Positions 17,696 through 24,612 of a stretch of 64,000 bases of DNA are shown piece by piece (the first letter of the stretch is position 1; the number at the start of each line of letters is the position of its first letter). The stretch is taken from NCBI GenBank assembly GCA_018829205.1, contig JAHJUE010000028.1, positions 62,001-126,000 on the forward strand, read 5' to 3'. The notes beneath the pieces were generated by a model. The model was given only the letters and a program-made list of their open reading frames with translations, was not told where the DNA came from and searched no databases. Source of the stretch: Bacteroidota bacterium (GTDB taxonomy: Bacteria > Bacteroidota > Ignavibacteria > Ignavibacteriales > Melioribacteraceae). Made by a program: the position numbers and the translations under genes.

Positions 17696-19405
17696 CTAAG
17701 TCATTGTTTCTCTTTTAACAGTCGGTATAAAATCTTTTGGTCTTCCGATCCTTGGTAAATTTAAAATTTCACGCGTCCTGTCCAAAGCGTCGTCAATATT
17801 TCCGAAAATATTATCTTCACCAAAAAGATCAAGCAGGCCGTCCTGTGTCATAGCAACTAAGGGCTGAGTATGAACCCCCGATAGAATTAGTTTTGTGCCT
17901 TGTTTTTCGGAATCATATAAAAATTCTCTTAAAATATGAAGTCCTGTTGCGTCAATAGCGGGTACATTTCTCATTCTTATAATTCTTACCTTGGGAGGGG
18001 ATTCAATAATTCTAGCCGCGTCTTTAAAAGTAGAAGCCGCGCCGAAGAAAAACGGCCCATTAATTTCAAAAACTTCAACTGATTCCGGCACCGCTTTTTT
18101 AGTTATTGAATTCGGATCGGAAAAATCTTCTTCGTCCTGAAGCTCACGAGTAATAATACCGACATTTGTTACAAGCGACATTCTTCTCATAAACAACAAT
18201 ACGGCAAGTACCATTCCGACTTCAATTGCTACGGTAAGATCAAAAATTAGAGTTAGGAAAAATGTAGTAAGTAAAACAGCGACATCGCTACGGGGACTTT
18301 TCATCAAACTTCTAAATGATCTCCATTCACTCATATTATAAGAAACGATTACAAGAATTGCGGCAAGTGTCGCCATTGGAATTAACTTCGCCCATTTACC
18401 GAAAAACAACATTATTAATAATAAAACTAAGGCATGGGTAATTCCCGCAATAGGAGTCCGTCCGCCGTTTTTAATATTTGCAGCGGTTCTCGCGATAGCA
18501 CCCGTTACCGGAATTCCGCCGAACAAAGGAGATAATATATTTGCCGTTCCCTGTGCGATTAATTCCATATTTGATCTATGTCTGCCGCCGATCATACCGT
18601 CTGCGACAACGGCGGAAAGCAATGACTCAATTGCCGCAAGCAGAGCAATAGTTGTTGCCGGAATTATTAAACTTTTAATTAATGCCAAATCAAAATAAGG
18701 GAGTGTAGGTATCGGAATTTCGGCGCTTATATTTCCAAAGCGGCTTCCGATTGTTTCAACCGGAAGGCTGAATATCTGAACTGCCGCTGTTGATAATACA
18801 ATGGCAATAATTGAACCTGGGATTTTTTTTGAAATCTTTGACCAGAATATCATTAATAATAATGATGCCGCACCGATTATCATCGAGCTGTAATTTATGC
18901 CCGAAAAACTTTTAAAATATAATTCCCATTTTTCGATAAAATCTGCCGGTACGTTGGAAATACTTAATCCGAAAAAATCATTTACCTGAGATGAAAAAAT
19001 TACAATCGCAATACCGCTAGTAAATCCTACTACAACCGGGTACGGAATAAATTTTATAACAGTTCCCAGCCGGGCAAATCCCATAATTATTAAAATTACG
19101 CCGGCCATTATTGTAGCAATAAGCAGCCCGTTTAAACCATGAACCTGTATAATTTGATATACAATTATTATAAACGCGCCTGTAGGTCCGCCAATCTGAA
19201 CACGGCTTCCGCCCATAAAAGAAATTATAAAACCGCCAATTATAGCAGTAATTAAACCTTTTTCAGGCGAAACTCCTGATGCGATTCCGAATGCAATTGC
19301 AAGAGGGAGGGCGATAATACCTACTATGGTACCGGCAGTTATGTCTGAAATTACCTGCTGTTTGGTAATTGTTTTGAACATTGTGAAGAACTTTGGTTTG
19401 AACAT
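17696..19405 (-). CDS. SulP-family anion transporter with STAS domain
   Basis: A 569-residue inner-membrane transporter. The first 420 or so residues hold the SulP core with many hydrophobic helices; the motifs [29 protein letters not shown] and [19 protein letters not shown] are typical. The C-terminus is a STAS domain containing [17 protein letters not shown]. Substrates in this family include sulfate, bicarbonate and dicarboxylates; sequence does not decide among them. A second ATG lies nine codons inside; I kept the first because AGAAG precedes it. It is divergent from a cytochrome c gene, and the region between them carries a palindromic regulatory module. Confidence 0.92.
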
Positions 19406-19484: not shown

Positions 19485-19549
19485 AATCCCTGAAAACAGG
19501 GATTGAAGACCCGGAGTCTTAATTATAGATTTACAACTCAAAATTAAAA
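19485..19549 (+). promoter_or_regulatory. Palindrome plus -10-like element, copy A
   Basis: AATCCCTG-AAAA-CAGGGATT (19485-19504) is a perfect 8+8 palindrome with an AAAA centre. TAGATTTA begins at 19526, 31.5 nt from the palindrome centre, followed at the same register by TCAAAATTAAAA (19538-19549). The whole module aligns without gaps to copy B at 23958. It lies between sulP (minus) and a cytochrome c gene (plus, start 19592). The geometry matches an activator site near -41. Confidence 0.65.
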
Positions 19550-19591
19550 ATGAAATCAAAAATTAATTAAACAAAAAATAAAGGAGTAAAA

Positions 19592-20179
19592 ATGAATATC
19601 TATTTCAAAATACTATATGCGGCGGCTACATTATTAGTTCTGCTTGTTACTGCCTGCTCTTTGGACGGCAATGATACCAAGGTTCAATCTGTTTTAAATC
19701 AAGAAGAATTAATTAAAAGAGGAGAATATTTAGTTAACTCTATCGGCTGTGACGATTGCCATTCTCCAAAAGTAATGGGACCAAAAGGGCCCGAAATTAA
19801 TCATGAATTAAGATTTTCCGGGTATCAGGCAAATATGCCTCTTCCTAAAATAGATAAAAACGTACTGCAAAACTGGGTGTTGTTTGCACATGATTTAACA
19901 GCAGCGGTAGGACCTTGGGGTGTTTCATTTGCCGGTAATATTTCATCTGACGAGACAGGAATTGGATTGTGGAGTGAAGATCAATTTGTTAAATCAATTA
20001 AAGAAGGCAAGTTTAAAGGTATGGACGGAGGAAGAACATTATTGCCTCCTATGCCCTGGCAGGTTTATAGAAATCTTACCGACCAGGATCTTAAAGCAAT
20101 TTTTGCTTACTTAAAAACAACAAAGCCTGTGAGAAACATTGTGCCTACTCCGATTTCCTTAGCAGAGTTGAAAAACTAA
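19592..20179 (+). CDS. Cytochrome c lipoprotein
   Basis: A 195-residue exported monohaem cytochrome c. The N-terminus is a lipoprotein signal with lipobox near LLVTACS (Cys22). Haem attaches at CDDCH in YLVNSIGCDDCHSPK; the later LLPPMPWQVYRNLTDQDL provides a likely Met ligand. The C-terminal pattern LKAIFAYLKTTKPVRN is typical of the diheme/monohaem 'c-type cytochrome' proteins of Bacteroidota that accompany dehydrogenases. The start is preceded by AAAGGAG. A terminator hairpin follows. The conserved promoter module 45 nt upstream suggests it is controlled together with the two-component system further on. Confidence 0.88.
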   Translation: MNIYFKILYAAATLLVLLVTACSLDGNDTKVQSVLNQEELIKRGEYLVNSIGCDDCHSPKVMGPKGPEINHELRFSGYQANMPLPKIDKNVLQNWVLFAHDLTAAVGPWGVSFAGNISSDETGIGLWSEDQFVKSIKEGKFKGMDGGRTLLPPMPWQVYRNLTDQDLKAIFAYLKTTKPVRNIVPTPISLAELKN

Positions 20180-20198
20180 AACTTCCCAATTGGTAAAT

Positions 20199-20245
20199 AT
20201 GAAAGTATCTCGGGATAAATTACCGGAGATACTTTCATAAAATTT
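20199..20245 (+). terminator. Terminator after cytochrome c gene
   Basis: ATGAAAGTATCTC (20199-20211) pairs with GAGATACTTTCAT (20226-20238), a 13-bp stem, followed by AAAATTTTT. It lies 20 nt past the cytochrome c stop. Confidence 0.75.
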
Positions 20246-20312
20246 TTAACAAAAATTATAAATGAATTTTATCGATCACAAGTATTCAAAAATTATATTA
20301 ATAGGAAAAACA

Positions 20313-21176
20313 ATGAAACATGTATATAAACTTTTACTTTTGCTTTGCGTTGTTATGCCGTCAATATTAAAAGCTCAGGTAATAAATTCAGGTTTTGAGC
20401 TTTGGACAGGCGAAAATCCCGATAACTGGGAAACAAGTAATTTCACTTTAATAGCATTACCAATTACAAAATCAACAGAAAGTCATAGCGGTACTTTTGC
20501 AGTTAAAGGAGAAGTAACGGCAGATTTATCCGGAGGAGAAATATTTATCCCGTTACTTACTTCTATTCCGGTTTCATCACCGCTTCCGAAATATTCTGCA
20601 ATGGAATTATATTATCAATTTAACCCTCTCGGCGGCGATGTATTAACGATAACAGTTTTAATGTATAACGACATTACTTTAGTGGGCGGAGGCGCTGTTG
20701 TAATTTATGACCAAACATCAGGTTATACTCGTTTGTCAATTCCCATTGATTACTTTTTAGAAGGTGAGCCAAATTACTGCATGATTGTTATTGGCGCGGG
20801 GAATGAAGACGAAGAAATAGCCGGTACGGTTGGTACATGGTTTTTAGTTGATGATGTTTCTTTCGGAGGAACTACGGGCATTGACGATAAAAACGACAAT
20901 AAATTGCCCGAAGGATTTTCACTTGAGCAGAATTACCCGAATCCGTTTAACCCTTCAACAACAATAGAGTTTTCACTTCCTTTGGCTGCCGAAGTTTCAT
21001 TAAAGGTTTATAATATGCTTGGGCAGGAGGTTGCCTCATTAATAGACCAAAAAGTAATGAGTGACGGACATCACAGAATTCAATGGGATGCTGATAATTT
21101 ATCAAATGGTACTTATATTTACAGCATAACGGCGGACAATTTTACTTTTGCAAGAAAGATGATTTTACTTAAATAA
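20313..21176 (+). CDS. Secreted protein with type IX secretion (Por) C-terminal sorting domain
   Basis: A 287-residue secreted protein. I start it at the ATG at 20313, which has AGGAAAA before it and gives a clean signal peptide (KLLLLLCVVMPSILKAQ); a longer frame opens at 20262. Residues about 20-185 form a beta-sandwich, carbohydrate-binding-like domain (IINSGFELWTGENPDNWE). The last 90 residues are the T9SS type A sorting domain: FSLEQNYPNPFNPSTTI, then YNMLGQEVASL and FARKMILLK. The protein should cross the outer membrane through the type IX machinery and be cell-attached or released. The cargo function is unknown. A terminator follows. Confidence 0.9.
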   Translation: MKHVYKLLLLLCVVMPSILKAQVINSGFELWTGENPDNWETSNFTLIALPITKSTESHSGTFAVKGEVTADLSGGEIFIPLLTSIPVSSPLPKYSAMELYYQFNPLGGDVLTITVLMYNDITLVGGGAVVIYDQTSGYTRLSIPIDYFLEGEPNYCMIVIGAGNEDEEIAGTVGTWFLVDDVSFGGTTGIDDKNDNKLPEGFSLEQNYPNPFNPSTTIEFSLPLAAEVSLKVYNMLGQEVASLIDQKVMSDGHHRIQWDADNLSNGTYIYSITADNFTFARKMILLK

Positions 21177-21204
21177 ACAGAGGGGAAAAAATCGTACGGC
21201 TGGT

Positions 21205-21256
21205 AAACCGGATACTGGAAATAAATTAAATTTTATTTACTGTATCCGGTTTTTAT
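21205..21256 (+). terminator. Terminator after T9SS cargo gene
   Basis: AAACCGGATAC (21205-21215) pairs with GTATCCGGTTT (21242-21252); the arms are further extended by AAATAAA/TTTATTT inside the loop. TTTATATTT follows. It can also serve the convergent response-regulator gene ending at 21273. Confidence 0.75.
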
Positions 21257-21272
21257 ATTTAATAACATCATG

Positions 21273-21884
21273 TTAGATAAATCCTCTCTCAACAGAAATT
21301 CTTATAAGCGATGCTGTATTTCTCGCCTGCAATTTTGCGATTAAATTTTTACGATGGCTGTCAACGGTTAAAGGACTTATAAAAAGCTGTTCGGCAATTT
21401 CCTGGTTTGTTAAGCCTTCGGCAATTAATTTTAATACTTCTTTTTCGCGGCGCGTTAAAATCATTTCCTCTTTTTCTTTTTTTTGAAGTATGATTTCAAC
21501 TTCATCTGCAATAAATTTATTCCCCGCGTTTATTTCTTTAATTGCTTCAAGTATTTCTTCGGATTCTGAATTTTTGAGTACATATCCGTCCGCCCCGTTT
21601 TCCATCATTTTTAAAACAACAGATCTTTCGTTAAAAGTTGTAAGAGCTAATATTTTTTGTTTCGGGGTTTTTTCTTTAATTGTTTTGCAAATGTCGAGTC
21701 CGCTTGCATCCGGCAGATTGATATCGAGTAAAATTATATCAGGTATTTCCCAGCGTAAAAAATCAATGCATGCTTTGCCCGATCCTGCGACTCCAATTAC
21801 CTCCGCTGTTTTGGAATCGTTAATTAATTTTCTTAAACCTTCCGCAACAATCGGATGGTCGTCAACAATTAATATTTTTATCAT
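21273..21884 (-). CDS. NarL/FixJ-family response regulator
   Basis: A 203-residue two-component response regulator. The receiver domain has the acid pair Asp8/Asp9, the phospho-acceptor Asp54 in IILLDINLPDASG, the Thr of ALTTF and the Lys of YVLKNSES. The C-terminal LuxR-type helix-turn-helix is LTRREKEVLKLIAEGLTNQE followed by IAEQLFISPLTVDSHRKNL. It is encoded 4 nt after the histidine kinase gene and is certainly its partner. Its likely targets include the AAAA-centred palindromes at 19485 and 23958, since NarL-type regulators bind such sites as dimers; this is inference. Confidence 0.95.
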   Translation of the reverse strand: MIKILIVDDHPIVAEGLRKLINDSKTAEVIGVAGSGKACIDFLRWEIPDIILLDINLPDASGLDICKTIKEKTPKQKILALTTFNERSVVLKMMENGADGYVLKNSESEEILEAIKEINAGNKFIADEVEIILQKKEKEEMILTRREKEVLKLIAEGLTNQEIAEQLFISPLTVDSHRKNLIAKLQARNTASLIRISVERGFI

Positions 21885-21888
21885 AGTT

Positions 21889-23886
21889 TTATAATTTTAA
21901 GTTTTCAAATTCAACTGTTATTTCGGTTCCTCTTCCAGGTAAGGAATCAATTTCAAAATGTCCCCCCATTGATTCAACACGAGATTTAATATTTTTAAGT
22001 CCGTGTCCCGTAAAAGATTCAATCATTTCTTTCTCAAACCCTTTTCCGTTGTCCTGAACCAGCAGGCTTATTCTTTCTTCTTCCTGTATTAATTGAATTA
22101 CGGCTTGAGAGGCCCCCGAATGTTTAATTACGTTATTTAAAAGTTCTTGAAAGATTCTATAAATTGTTAATTCCATGTTTTGTAGTAAACGATTTTCCAA
22201 ACCGAAAAACTGGTGTTTTACTTTTAAATTTCCGCTTTTATCAATACTGTCGCAGAATTCCGAAATTGCTTCTTTCAATCCGTAATTTAATAAAGCCTGC
22301 GGCATTAAGTTGCGCGCAACCCTTCGCAGTTCGGTTATTGAAGTATCAAGCAAATTTAATGCTTGATTAAATGTATTAGTTGCTTCTTCATTAGGAACAT
22401 AAGCTTCTTTATATGAACTTAAAGTTAATTTTGTACCGGAGAGCAGTCCGCCCAGCCCGTCATGCAAATCACGTGCAATTCTAAATCGTTCGTTCTCTTC
22501 ACCTTCAAGCGCGGCCTGCACGGCTACAAGTTGTTTTTCTTTTTCAAGTTCGTTTACTTTCTGCCGGTGAATCTTCACATTCTGCTCTGCAATTTTTCGT
22601 TTGTTTTTATAATATTGCCTTACAAAGAAAAACGCAATTAAAAATGAAATTACTAAAAGAGTAAGAAGCAGAATCAGGTTATTACGTTTTTCAAGTTCAA
22701 GATTTTGGATTTTCTGTTCTGTGAGAAGTTTTGATATTTCGTGCTCTTTTTGTGCCGCCTGGTATTTCGCATTTAAGAAATTTGTCTGTTTTTGATCATC
22801 TTCGGAAAAAATTTCGTAAATGGTATCAACATATCTTTGCAGATAATCGTACGCCTTTTTATAATTGCCCCTTTCTTCTTCAAGATAATATAATACATCT
22901 AAAATATTTCTGATCAGTAATTTTGATTTTATTTCCTCTGCCTGCTTTAAAGCCGGCAGAAGTATTTTATTCGCGGCTTCTAATTCATTATTGTAATAAA
23001 AAGCTTTGCCGTATTTATACATAGCGTCGCATTCGTCAAATTTGCTCCCGGCTTTGCGGGCGTATTCGGCTGACTTAAAATAATAAATTTTAGACTCCTC
23101 GTACTTTTCTTGACGCGTTAGCATAAAAGCGTAATCATATTCACAAACACTTAACAGTCTGAAAAAATCATTCTGCCCGGCAATTATTCTTGCCTGTTCA
23201 TAAACTGGCGCAGCTTCTTTAAACTTATTCTCATATGTTAAATTGTTTGCATAATTAATTAAGTATTCAACTCTTACATATGGATCATCAATTAAATTTG
23301 ACAACGATTTTGCTTTATCCATATACATCATCGCTTTTTCATTTTTATTAAGATGTAAATGGATGTCAACGAGTCCCAAATAAATTTTCAGCAAAGCGGC
23401 GTTATCATTGTATTGAAGAAGGATAGATTCCGCTTCCATGTATTTTGTAAGCGAAGTTTGCATATCCCCGTTTTTCTGATAGAACGAGGCTATGTTTGTA
23501 AGTGTTTTTGCAAATCCGATGTTTCCGGCTTTTGTACTAATAGAGCCGTATAATTTTTCCGCTTTGTTGTAATAGAATAATGCCTTTTCAAAATCGGCTG
23601 CATTGCCAAAATATATTCCCGCAATTCTATAAGATTCCGCTTTTTCAAAATCATAATTTGTTGAGCCGGCTTCCTTTAAAACTTCCGCGCAGTATTCTTT
23701 TGCTTTTGCGGTATCCGTATTTATATAAAAATAGAAAATGCTGTTAAGTATATTAAGTTTTGAAGAATCATTTTCTGCTTTGGAAAAAGCAGTATGCAAT
23801 GAATCAAGTTTCTGATTTTGTGCAAATACAGATATGTTTAGTGTTGATAAAACTATTATCACTTTTATGAAATTATTTATACTCAT
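21889..23886 (-). CDS. TPR-containing sensor histidine kinase (HisKA_3 type)
   Basis: A 665-residue membrane kinase. A signal peptide (IIVLSTLNISVFAQ) is followed by about 360 residues of TPR-like helical repeats that should lie in the periplasm, a coiled coil, one membrane helix (LILLLTLLVISFLIAFFFV, about 402-422), a second coiled coil, the HisKA_3 dimerisation helix with His475 in RIARDLHDGLGG, and a HATPase_c domain with the N box in FQELLNNVIKHSG and the G box in DNGKGF. This architecture is common in Bacteroidota and pairs with NarL-type regulators, here encoded next. The input signal is unknown. Confidence 0.93.
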   Translation of the reverse strand: MSINNFIKVIIVLSTLNISVFAQNQKLDSLHTAFSKAENDSSKLNILNSIFYFYINTDTAKAKEYCAEVLKEAGSTNYDFEKAESYRIAGIYFGNAADFEKALFYYNKAEKLYGSISTKAGNIGFAKTLTNIASFYQKNGDMQTSLTKYMEAESILLQYNDNAALLKIYLGLVDIHLHLNKNEKAMMYMDKAKSLSNLIDDPYVRVEYLINYANNLTYENKFKEAAPVYEQARIIAGQNDFFRLLSVCEYDYAFMLTRQEKYEESKIYYFKSAEYARKAGSKFDECDAMYKYGKAFYYNNELEAANKILLPALKQAEEIKSKLLIRNILDVLYYLEEERGNYKKAYDYLQRYVDTIYEIFSEDDQKQTNFLNAKYQAAQKEHEISKLLTEQKIQNLELEKRNNLILLLTLLVISFLIAFFFVRQYYKNKRKIAEQNVKIHRQKVNELEKEKQLVAVQAALEGEENERFRIARDLHDGLGGLLSGTKLTLSSYKEAYVPNEEATNTFNQALNLLDTSITELRRVARNLMPQALLNYGLKEAISEFCDSIDKSGNLKVKHQFFGLENRLLQNMELTIYRIFQELLNNVIKHSGASQAVIQLIQEEERISLLVQDNGKGFEKEMIESFTGHGLKNIKSRVESMGGHFEIDSLPGRGTEITVEFENLKL

Positions 23887-23957
23887 CTTACAACTATTAT
23901 TGTTAATAGATTACTATTAAATCCCCCCCTTAATATATGTAACCAATTCAGGAAAAA

Positions 23958-24022
23958 AATCCACGAAAACAGGGATTGTTGAAGCTAGATTATAAGACTA
24001 GATTTGAAGTTCAAAATTAAAA
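23958..24022 (+). promoter_or_regulatory. Palindrome plus -10-like element, copy B
   Basis: AATCCACG-AAAA-CAGGGATT (23958-23977) has the same right arm and AAAA centre as copy A, with two mismatches in the left arm. TAGATTTG begins at 23999, again 31.5 nt from the centre; it also fits the Bacteroidota -7 consensus TAnnTTTG. TCAAAATTAAAA follows at 24011, in the same register as copy A. It lies between the kinase gene (minus, start 23886) and an outer-membrane barrel gene (plus, start 24076). Confidence 0.62.
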
Positions 24023-24075: not shown

Positions 24076-24612
24076 ATGAAAAAACCAGCTCTTCTTCTAT
24101 TCTTTTTTATCGTATTCGGTTCATTTGTAAATGCGCAGGGATTTCAAAAAGACAGCAAACAAATTAATGCGGGAATAGGTTTCGGACTTCCGGGTATTTA
24201 CGGTGATTCTGATCTGCCTCCGGTAAGTGTTGGTTTTCAATACGGTATTGATGAGAAAATATCTATCGGGGGAATTGTTGGTTTAAGCACTTCTTCATAT
24301 AGCGACGGATGGTATAACGATAATTATAAATGGTCGTTTACATATTTTATTATAGGCGCAAGAGGCGAATACCATTTTTTAAAAAACGAAGATAAATTCG
24401 ACGCTTATGCAGGCGTTACATTAGCTTACAACAATGTAAGCGTTTCAGAACCGTCCGGTTATAACGGGTTATATACTTATGACGGCAGCTACATGATTTA
24501 CGGCGCGCACGTAGGCGGAAGATACGCATTTTCGGAAACTTTAGGGGCGTTTGCTGAAATTGGGTACGGGATAGGATATTTAACATTTGGTGTTTCTTAT
24601 AATCTAAAATAA
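24076..24612 (+). CDS. Outer-membrane beta-barrel protein (OmpA/OMP_b-brl-like)
   Basis: About 178 residues. I use the ATG at 24076, which opens a clear signal peptide (PALLLFFFIVFGSFVNAQG); the frame is open further up to 24004. The mature protein has alternating hydrophobic and aromatic beta strands such as KISIGGIVGLSTSS, YFIIGARGEYHF and GAHVGGRYAFSETLGAF, and ends in an aromatic-hydrophobic strand (LTFGVSYNLK), all typical of an eight-stranded barrel. Function unknown; small barrels of this sort can be adhesins or porins. It is divergent from the histidine kinase and has a conserved promoter module upstream, suggesting regulation by that system. Confidence 0.8.
   Translation: MKKPALLLFFFIVFGSFVNAQGFQKDSKQINAGIGFGLPGIYGDSDLPPVSVGFQYGIDEKISIGGIVGLSTSSYSDGWYNDNYKWSFTYFIIGARGEYHFLKNEDKFDAYAGVTLAYNNVSVSEPSGYNGLYTYDGSYMIYGAHVGGRYAFSETLGAFAEIGYGIGYLTFGVSYNLK

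Follow-up and report, generated by a model that had tools for sequence, protein, structure and literature searches.

We analysed a 64,000-nucleotide stretch of a Melioribacteraceae genome (phylum Bacteroidota; 'the window' below means this whole stretch) in which the genes for a NarL/FixJ-type response regulator and a sensor histidine kinase with tetratricopeptide repeats (TPRs) lie between two copies of a promoter module. Each module has a palindrome with an AAAA centre and, a fixed distance downstream, a -7 box of the Bacteroidota type. The explanation that we favour, with a probability of about 0.77, is that both palindromes are operators of the regulator encoded between them, that they would serve class II-like activation of a c-type cytochrome gene and of a gene for a small putative outer-membrane barrel, and that the two-component system was gained by transfer. 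The operator type is associated with one clade of regulators, recurs with the same spacing on promoters in other families, and is rare in the genome's own family.

Two modules with a common layout

The elements of the modules are as follows; bit scores are from a matrix built on sites of related systems (relatives' matrix).

19485-19504, + strand: operator 1, perfect 8-4-8 palindrome with AAAA centre, AATCCCTGAAAACAGGGATT; 24.3 bits
19503-19505, + strand: putative -33-like TTG overlapping operator 1, 20 nt upstream of the -7 box
19526-19533, + strand: -7 box TAGATTTA, 21 nt past operator 1, a spacing found in 11 of 26 relatives' promoters
19538-19549, + strand: 12-mer TCAAAATTAAAA at predicted transcript start 1; contains TAATTTTG on the - strand (19546-19539)
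23958-23977, + strand: operator 2, imperfect palindrome (6 of 8 arm pairs) with AAAA centre, AATCCACGAAAACAGGGATT; 21.0 bits
23976-23978, + strand: putative -33-like TTG overlapping operator 2, 20 nt upstream of the -7 box
23999-24006, + strand: -7 box TAGATTTG, 21 nt past operator 2
24011-24022, + strand: 12-mer TCAAAATTAAAA at predicted transcript start 2; contains TAATTTTG on the - strand (24019-24012)

Positions 19485-19549 and 23958-24022 align without a gap with 46 of 65 positions identical (72% when taken over 67), and in both modules the -7 box begins 31.5 nt from the dyad and the 12-mer begins 12 nt after the start of the box. Direct reading thus confirms the alignment, the AAAA centre and both distances, all of which an original prediction made from this DNA had described. 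The identity is spread unevenly: it is 18/20 in the palindrome, 7/8 in the -7 octamer and 12/12 in the 12-mer, which occurs exactly three times in the window, twice inside the modules. Because the spacer matches at only 8/21 while the boxes are nearly identical, the pattern points to selection on the boxes rather than a recent copy. A recent duplication, or a chance similarity of AT-rich intergenic DNA, would agree with the AT-richness of the gaps and with an alignment of 65 bp that needs no gap; this is nonetheless extremely improbable, as 1,000 dinucleotide-shuffled pairs of the gaps gave at most 43 identities (mean 35.2, s.d. 1.5) against the real 46, and the same module is present in other families. 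Both operators hold an inverted repeat, a candidate dimer site for a NarL/FixJ response regulator, and the palindrome can be read as TCCCTGA-AA-ACAGGGA in a 7-2-7 layout.

In promoters of a flavobacterium the TAnnTTTG element spans -12 to -5, counted from the transcript start (PMC9723704). The same placement here predicts starts at 19538 and 24011, the positions originally proposed, and puts the dyad at -43.5, not near -41 as had been suggested. The full consensus occurs in module 2 only (TAGATTTG); in module 1 the last base is an A (TAGATTTA), and the claimed fit to TAnnTTTG stands for the second box and fails for the first. Class II activator sites are centred near -41.5 and overlap the upstream core element. 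The predicted dyad lies near this position, not exactly on it, and the putative -33-like TTG shares bases with the right arm; the predicted geometry is class II-like. The 20 nt from this TTG to the -7 box in both modules fall inside the 17-23 nt spacing of Bacteroidota -33/-7 promoters. What distinguishes these modules from other sigma-A promoters of the phylum is an activator-type site upstream at a set distance, 21 nt here and 36 nt in some relatives, and the fixed distance between site and box that the prediction had emphasized is borne out.

The genes around the modules are:

17696-19405, - strand: SulP-family transporter, divergent from the cytochrome gene (PF00916, PF01740; TIGR00815 at 375.6 bits, just below the cut-off of 380.45)
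19592-20179, + strand: c-type cytochrome, 195 aa, first candidate target (Pfam PF00034, 27.3 bits; cut-off 21.3)
21273-21884, - strand: NarL/FixJ-type response regulator, presumed binder (PF00072, 95.7 bits; PF00196, 73.5 bits; both over the cut-off)
21889-23886, - strand: TPR sensor histidine kinase (TPR repeats, HisKA_3, HATPase_c)
24076-24612, + strand: small secreted protein, 178 aa, second candidate target; labelled a probable outer-membrane beta-barrel in the original prediction

The A-tract and the -7 box of both modules point to the + strand genes. Reverse complements of the two operators score only 2.0 and -2.3 bits, and no site facing either - strand gene (sulP or the kinase operon) scores above 2.0 bits. 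With a directional operator that faces the other way, neither sulP nor the operon of the regulator itself is supported as a target; of the single regulon of four that had been proposed, the cytochrome c and barrel genes remain as natural targets. For these two promoters the link between regulator and site and the predicted activator-type geometry are well supported.

The 12-mer bears on a different arrangement, which we consider unlikely, in which promoters overlap face to face. Here TCAAAATTAAAA would be kept for the - strand -7 box TAATTTTG of sulP and the kinase operon, and the regulator would favour one direction and block the other, linking all four genes as first proposed. Both gaps are divergent, the 12-mer is identical at 12/12, and TAATTTTG lies at the same place in each, 141 and 133 nt before the start codons of sulP and the kinase. 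However, an A-rich leader readily yields such a motif, a - strand TTG stands 22 nt away in gap 2 and 25 nt away in gap 1, and CAAANNTA is absent from the up to 55 nt that follow the proximal site at all 26 relatives' loci. A combined arrangement is rather improbable: a face-to-face -7 pair with a polar AAAA operator, brought or rebuilt by the transferred two-component system, in which one bound dimer would, at each of the two gaps, choose between the divergent transcripts and so switch between the regulator operon and sulP on one side and the barrel and cytochrome genes on the other.

Under the activation mechanism that we favour, the phosphorylated regulator would bind as a dimer to the NarL-like-spaced palindrome TCCCTGA-N2-ACAGGGA centred at about -43.5, contact RNA polymerase at a weak -33 region, and activate two promoters with a sigma-A type -7 box (TAGATTTR), those of the cytochrome c and small barrel genes. 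Kinase, regulator and operator type would belong to a clade of two-component systems from other Bacteroidota families and were probably acquired by transfer. In the relatives the module lies on the kinase's own promoter, where it would be autoregulatory by position; in the window it would serve two adjacent + strand genes instead.

Operators on the kinase promoters of relatives

Sites of the same type lie upstream of the relatives' kinases, for example AATCCCCGAAAAAGGGGAAT, AATCCCTTAAAAAGGGGAAT and AATCCATTAAAACAGGGATA. At 12/16 or better, 41 sites are on the kinase strand (36 distinct, some being one-base shifts) versus one on the opposite strand, in 23 of 32 loci. A matrix iterated from these loci, seeded with the consensus of the window palindrome but containing no window sequence, comprises 44 sites in 26 of the 32 loci, with consensus AATCCCCTAAAAAGGGGATT. 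With this matrix the two window operators rank first and second over both strands of the 64 kb, the next score being 14.3 bits. All 44 sites have AA at positions 10-11, and position pairs 3-18 and 4-17 are each complementary in 40 of 44, with no covariation beyond shuffles (best p 0.058).

The spacing to the promoter also recurs. At offset 25 past the proximal site, which puts the start of TAnnTTTR 21 nt beyond the 20-mer, precisely the spacing of the window modules, TTTG occurs in 10 of the 26 training loci (at most 4 at any offset in 2,000 shuffles), and one more locus has TTTA there, making 11 of 26 at the window's distance. In seven others (L091, L138-L142, L157) TTTA lies at offset 40, so that the box follows the operator by 36 nt, 15 nt more than in the first class. 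Shuffles reach this count in 1 of 2,000 trials; the second class was noticed post hoc and tested on the same 26 loci only. Across a larger set of 31 in-clade loci, 13 have TTTG at offset 25 and 4 have it at offset 24. Two distances are thus favoured among the relatives, and the window modules have the shorter one.

A second site lies 24-69 nt further upstream at 18 of the 26 loci, and in nine of these 18 the distance is 36-38 nt (kinase promoters L093, L138, L141, L142, L147, L155, L157, L161 and L165), which suggests two dimers at a fixed phase. At the window modules no second upstream operator scores above 10 bits. These features also bear on the possibility that the same regulator uses the same sites as a repressor, the dimer covering the -33 region and blocking polymerase. 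Such a role would be in keeping with the overlap of the right arm and the -33-like TTG in both copies, but two preferred -7 distances 15 nt apart and the second upstream site at most loci fit activation better, and at the longer distance a dimer would probably leave the -33 region uncovered. We therefore regard repression as distinctly unlikely.

A composite pattern in which the operator is followed after 21 nt by the -7 box, allowing at most two mismatches, matches 26 times in 15 of 20 relatives' genomes (three times when reversed). Sixteen of the 26 precede such a kinase; 13 of these were assigned from coordinates and three from the look of the open reading frame (L178, L186 and L187, unscanned; L186 shows the kinase core only). 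Among the other ten are matches in coding sequence and a small number of possible targets. One of these, L184 (G165:C1:2106480-2106528, - strand), has the strongest operator observed, AATCCTGTAAAAAGGGGATT, at 27.0 bits, and is flanked by open reading frames that by look resemble an FtsX/MacB-type permease and an HMG-CoA synthase; it is a candidate non-kinase target.

A probably transferred system with an apparently local regulon

Further sites at the same spacing had been predicted for this genome, but only the two modules were found. Over the whole genome (4,586,260 bases) the palindrome with up to three mismatches occurs at two sites only (one in the reversed-pattern control), and it is absent from 100 shuffles of the window. 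The composite based on the relatives' consensus gives nine matches versus two in the control; the window modules have 0 and 1 mismatch and the remaining seven all have three. Three of these seven were inspected and rejected as promoters (L170, L171 and L173), as they lie in coding sequence; L171 (G000:C3:93171-93219) scores 20.5 bits, probably by chance, and L170 18.2 bits, and with both in coding sequence a high matrix score is not enough to call a promoter. With a looser palindrome the composite matches 29 times at up to three mismatches versus 19 in the control, and only the window modules have fewer than two. A search for TANNTTTR-N5-TCAAAATTAAAA returned 26 matches versus 26 in the control, although the modules have N4 and this count is uninformative on the true spacing. 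The regulon thus looks local. We do not take this outcome to refute the prediction, since relatives carry the same module on their kinase promoters, and it is on these relatives that the kinship of operator and regulator rests, since the genome itself has only two modules.

No orthologous site was recognised in 79 genomes of the family to which the genome belongs. The palindrome with up to three mismatches matches 30 times (13 in the reversed control), 28 of them outside the genome itself, and we rejected all 28: 24 fall wholly or partly within an open reading frame as roughly called, and four (L012, L019, L024, L026) are intergenic but by eye have no -7 box at the window's position. A matrix scan of 29 own-family regulator loci (103 kb) found two sites above 17 bits, both taken as background: L039 (20.3 bits), behind its regulator gene, and L050 (17.3 bits), at a kinase/regulator junction.

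The operator follows one clade of regulators. In a tree of 77 rows the window regulator falls in a 45-row clade (support 100/99) of other families with no other row from its own, and inside it in a 37-row group (96/79; 88 in a quick tree) that holds every operator-bearing row; the kinase promoters of this clade carry AATCCCC-type sites. A kinase-strand operator is present at 31 of 34 scored loci inside the group versus 0 of 11 outside, training loci included. Sampling across the phylum added 20 loci, eight of which have a kinase-strand site of at least 16 bits, and at this threshold the held-out loci alone give 8/11 inside the clade versus 0/8 outside (Fisher p 0.003). Counts were measured from open reading frame starts, after dropping duplicates (L133-L135 and held-out L203 and L204), training loci with no upstream sequence (L149, L159, L164) and loci with no regulator beside the kinase; L223 was left off the tree, its regulator being the same as that of L219. 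This association supports the proposal that the site is that of the NarL-type regulator or of its clade. A related palindrome, AATACCTGAATTCCGGTATT, lies about 75 nt before the kinase of a sister-clade system (L221), and operator variants may follow regulator clades.

By its distribution the kinase looks foreign to the family. Genome searches, which scored only the best few candidates per genome, found it at 1e-35 in one of the 79 own-family genomes, namely this one; at 1e-55, at least once in each of 114 genomes out of 244 sampled from the family to which a Terrimonas genome belongs; and at 1e-60, in 16 genomes of a phylum-wide sample of 395, the other 15 being in other families. A similar regulator is present at 1e-20 in 73 of the 79 own-family genomes, this one included, and among the matches listed none except the window's own is more than 41% identical to it. 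Regulators adjoining the relatives' kinases are 41-53% identical (35-36% at L136 and L137). Together these comparisons suggest that the kinase and regulator are probably of foreign origin and were gained by transfer.

The genome has at least eight regulators at 1e-20 including the window's (40 of 103 candidates scored), and the seven or more others raise the possibility that the sites belong to one of them and that the pair between the modules is there by accident. This is very unlikely: in other families the same operator precedes kinases paired with the window regulator's clade and not with sister clades, and the two paralogs compared fall among regulators of the own family and have different recognition helices.

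Several observations weigh against the reading that we favour. Two of the genome's other regulators at 1e-20 were compared with the window regulator; with only two sites genome-wide, regulon size cannot serve as a test; and the matrix is unspecific at genome scale, giving the 20.5-bit site in coding sequence and the 20.3-bit site in a control locus. The window regulator is tied to the operator-bearing rows by a node with support of only 96/79, within which it is a lone branch. Three of the 34 in-clade loci (L205, L207, L218) have no kinase-strand site, and on the opposite strand L207 has a site of 18.5 bits and L214 the better of its sites, at 22.7 bits. The window's spacing is found in 11 of the 26 relatives' promoters, with seven having the box 15 nt further and eight neither, and nine of the 13 coordinate-confirmed kinase matches to the composite had shaped the pattern, leaving 7 of 16 new. 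Finally, the relatives' module faces the kinase gene and the window's faces away from it: the window has no operator on the kinase's own promoter with the A-tract toward the kinase, and site 2 faces the barrel gene, its dyad about 81 nt from the kinase start codon, a usual distance upstream of the kinase.

Known systems and neighbouring features

The receiver domain followed by a GerE/LuxR helix-turn-helix identifies the regulator as a NarL/FixJ response regulator, and its best solved relatives are VraR (1.3e-32), NarL (1.1e-31) and DevR (1e-30). NarL sites have a 7-2-7 layout with the heptamer TACYNMT; the window palindrome fits the layout, whereas its heptamer, TCCCTGA, is not that of NarL. 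The operator also differs from those of NarL, VraR and DevR in its asymmetric AAAA centre, its fixed orientation and its -33/-7 Bacteroidota promoter in place of -35/-10.

A further parallel is FimS/FimR of Porphyromonas gingivalis, a Bacteroidota two-component system with a TPR sensor kinase whose regulator activates surface (fimbrial) genes; the TPRs in the FimS sensor region are taken to suggest a protein signal (both from the part of PMC5706477 consulted). The NCBIfam FimS model matches part of the window kinase, but at 48.6 bits against a cut-off of 600 the kinase does not qualify as FimS, and the targets there are fimbrial. No FimR operator is given in that part of PMC5706477, and none was found by a term search of PMC1974823.

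The system is of a known kind and the operator is new. In open-access PubMed Central articles, as far as their text could be viewed, we found no operator described for this type of TPR-kinase/LuxR-regulator system (subscription journals lie outside this coverage) and none for Bacteroidota regulators of the LuxR type, whether with TPR kinases or in Chitinophaga. The modules offer a DNA site, whose consensus and two spacings can be put to the test, for a large, little-studied family of TPR-kinase/LuxR-regulator pairs in Bacteroidota, and knowledge of the operator would make the targets of many such systems predictable. They also present a likely case of transfer in which an operator shifted from a system's own promoter to neighbouring genes.

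Two further inverted repeats are possible terminators, although a simple terminator scan did not include either among its terminators: one 3' of the cytochrome gene (20198-20239; 17 nt, 94%) and one between the regulator and a convergent gene with a type IX secretion system tail (21205-21252; 21 nt, 90%).

The barrel candidate (24076-24612) had no match in Pfam and NCBIfam scans, and its single-sequence structure model is unusable, with a predicted local distance difference test score of 37.5. Homologs occur in 29 of the 79 own-family genomes, its own included. At the corresponding place upstream of homologs from other genera (L062-L066) no such palindrome is present. Four of these (L063-L066) share TTGGCAT followed 5 nt on by TTTG, which we take to be sigma54-like, and have upstream inverted repeats of the kind TTGTTGCAA..TTGCAACA; in these loci this type of barrel may be under another regulator.

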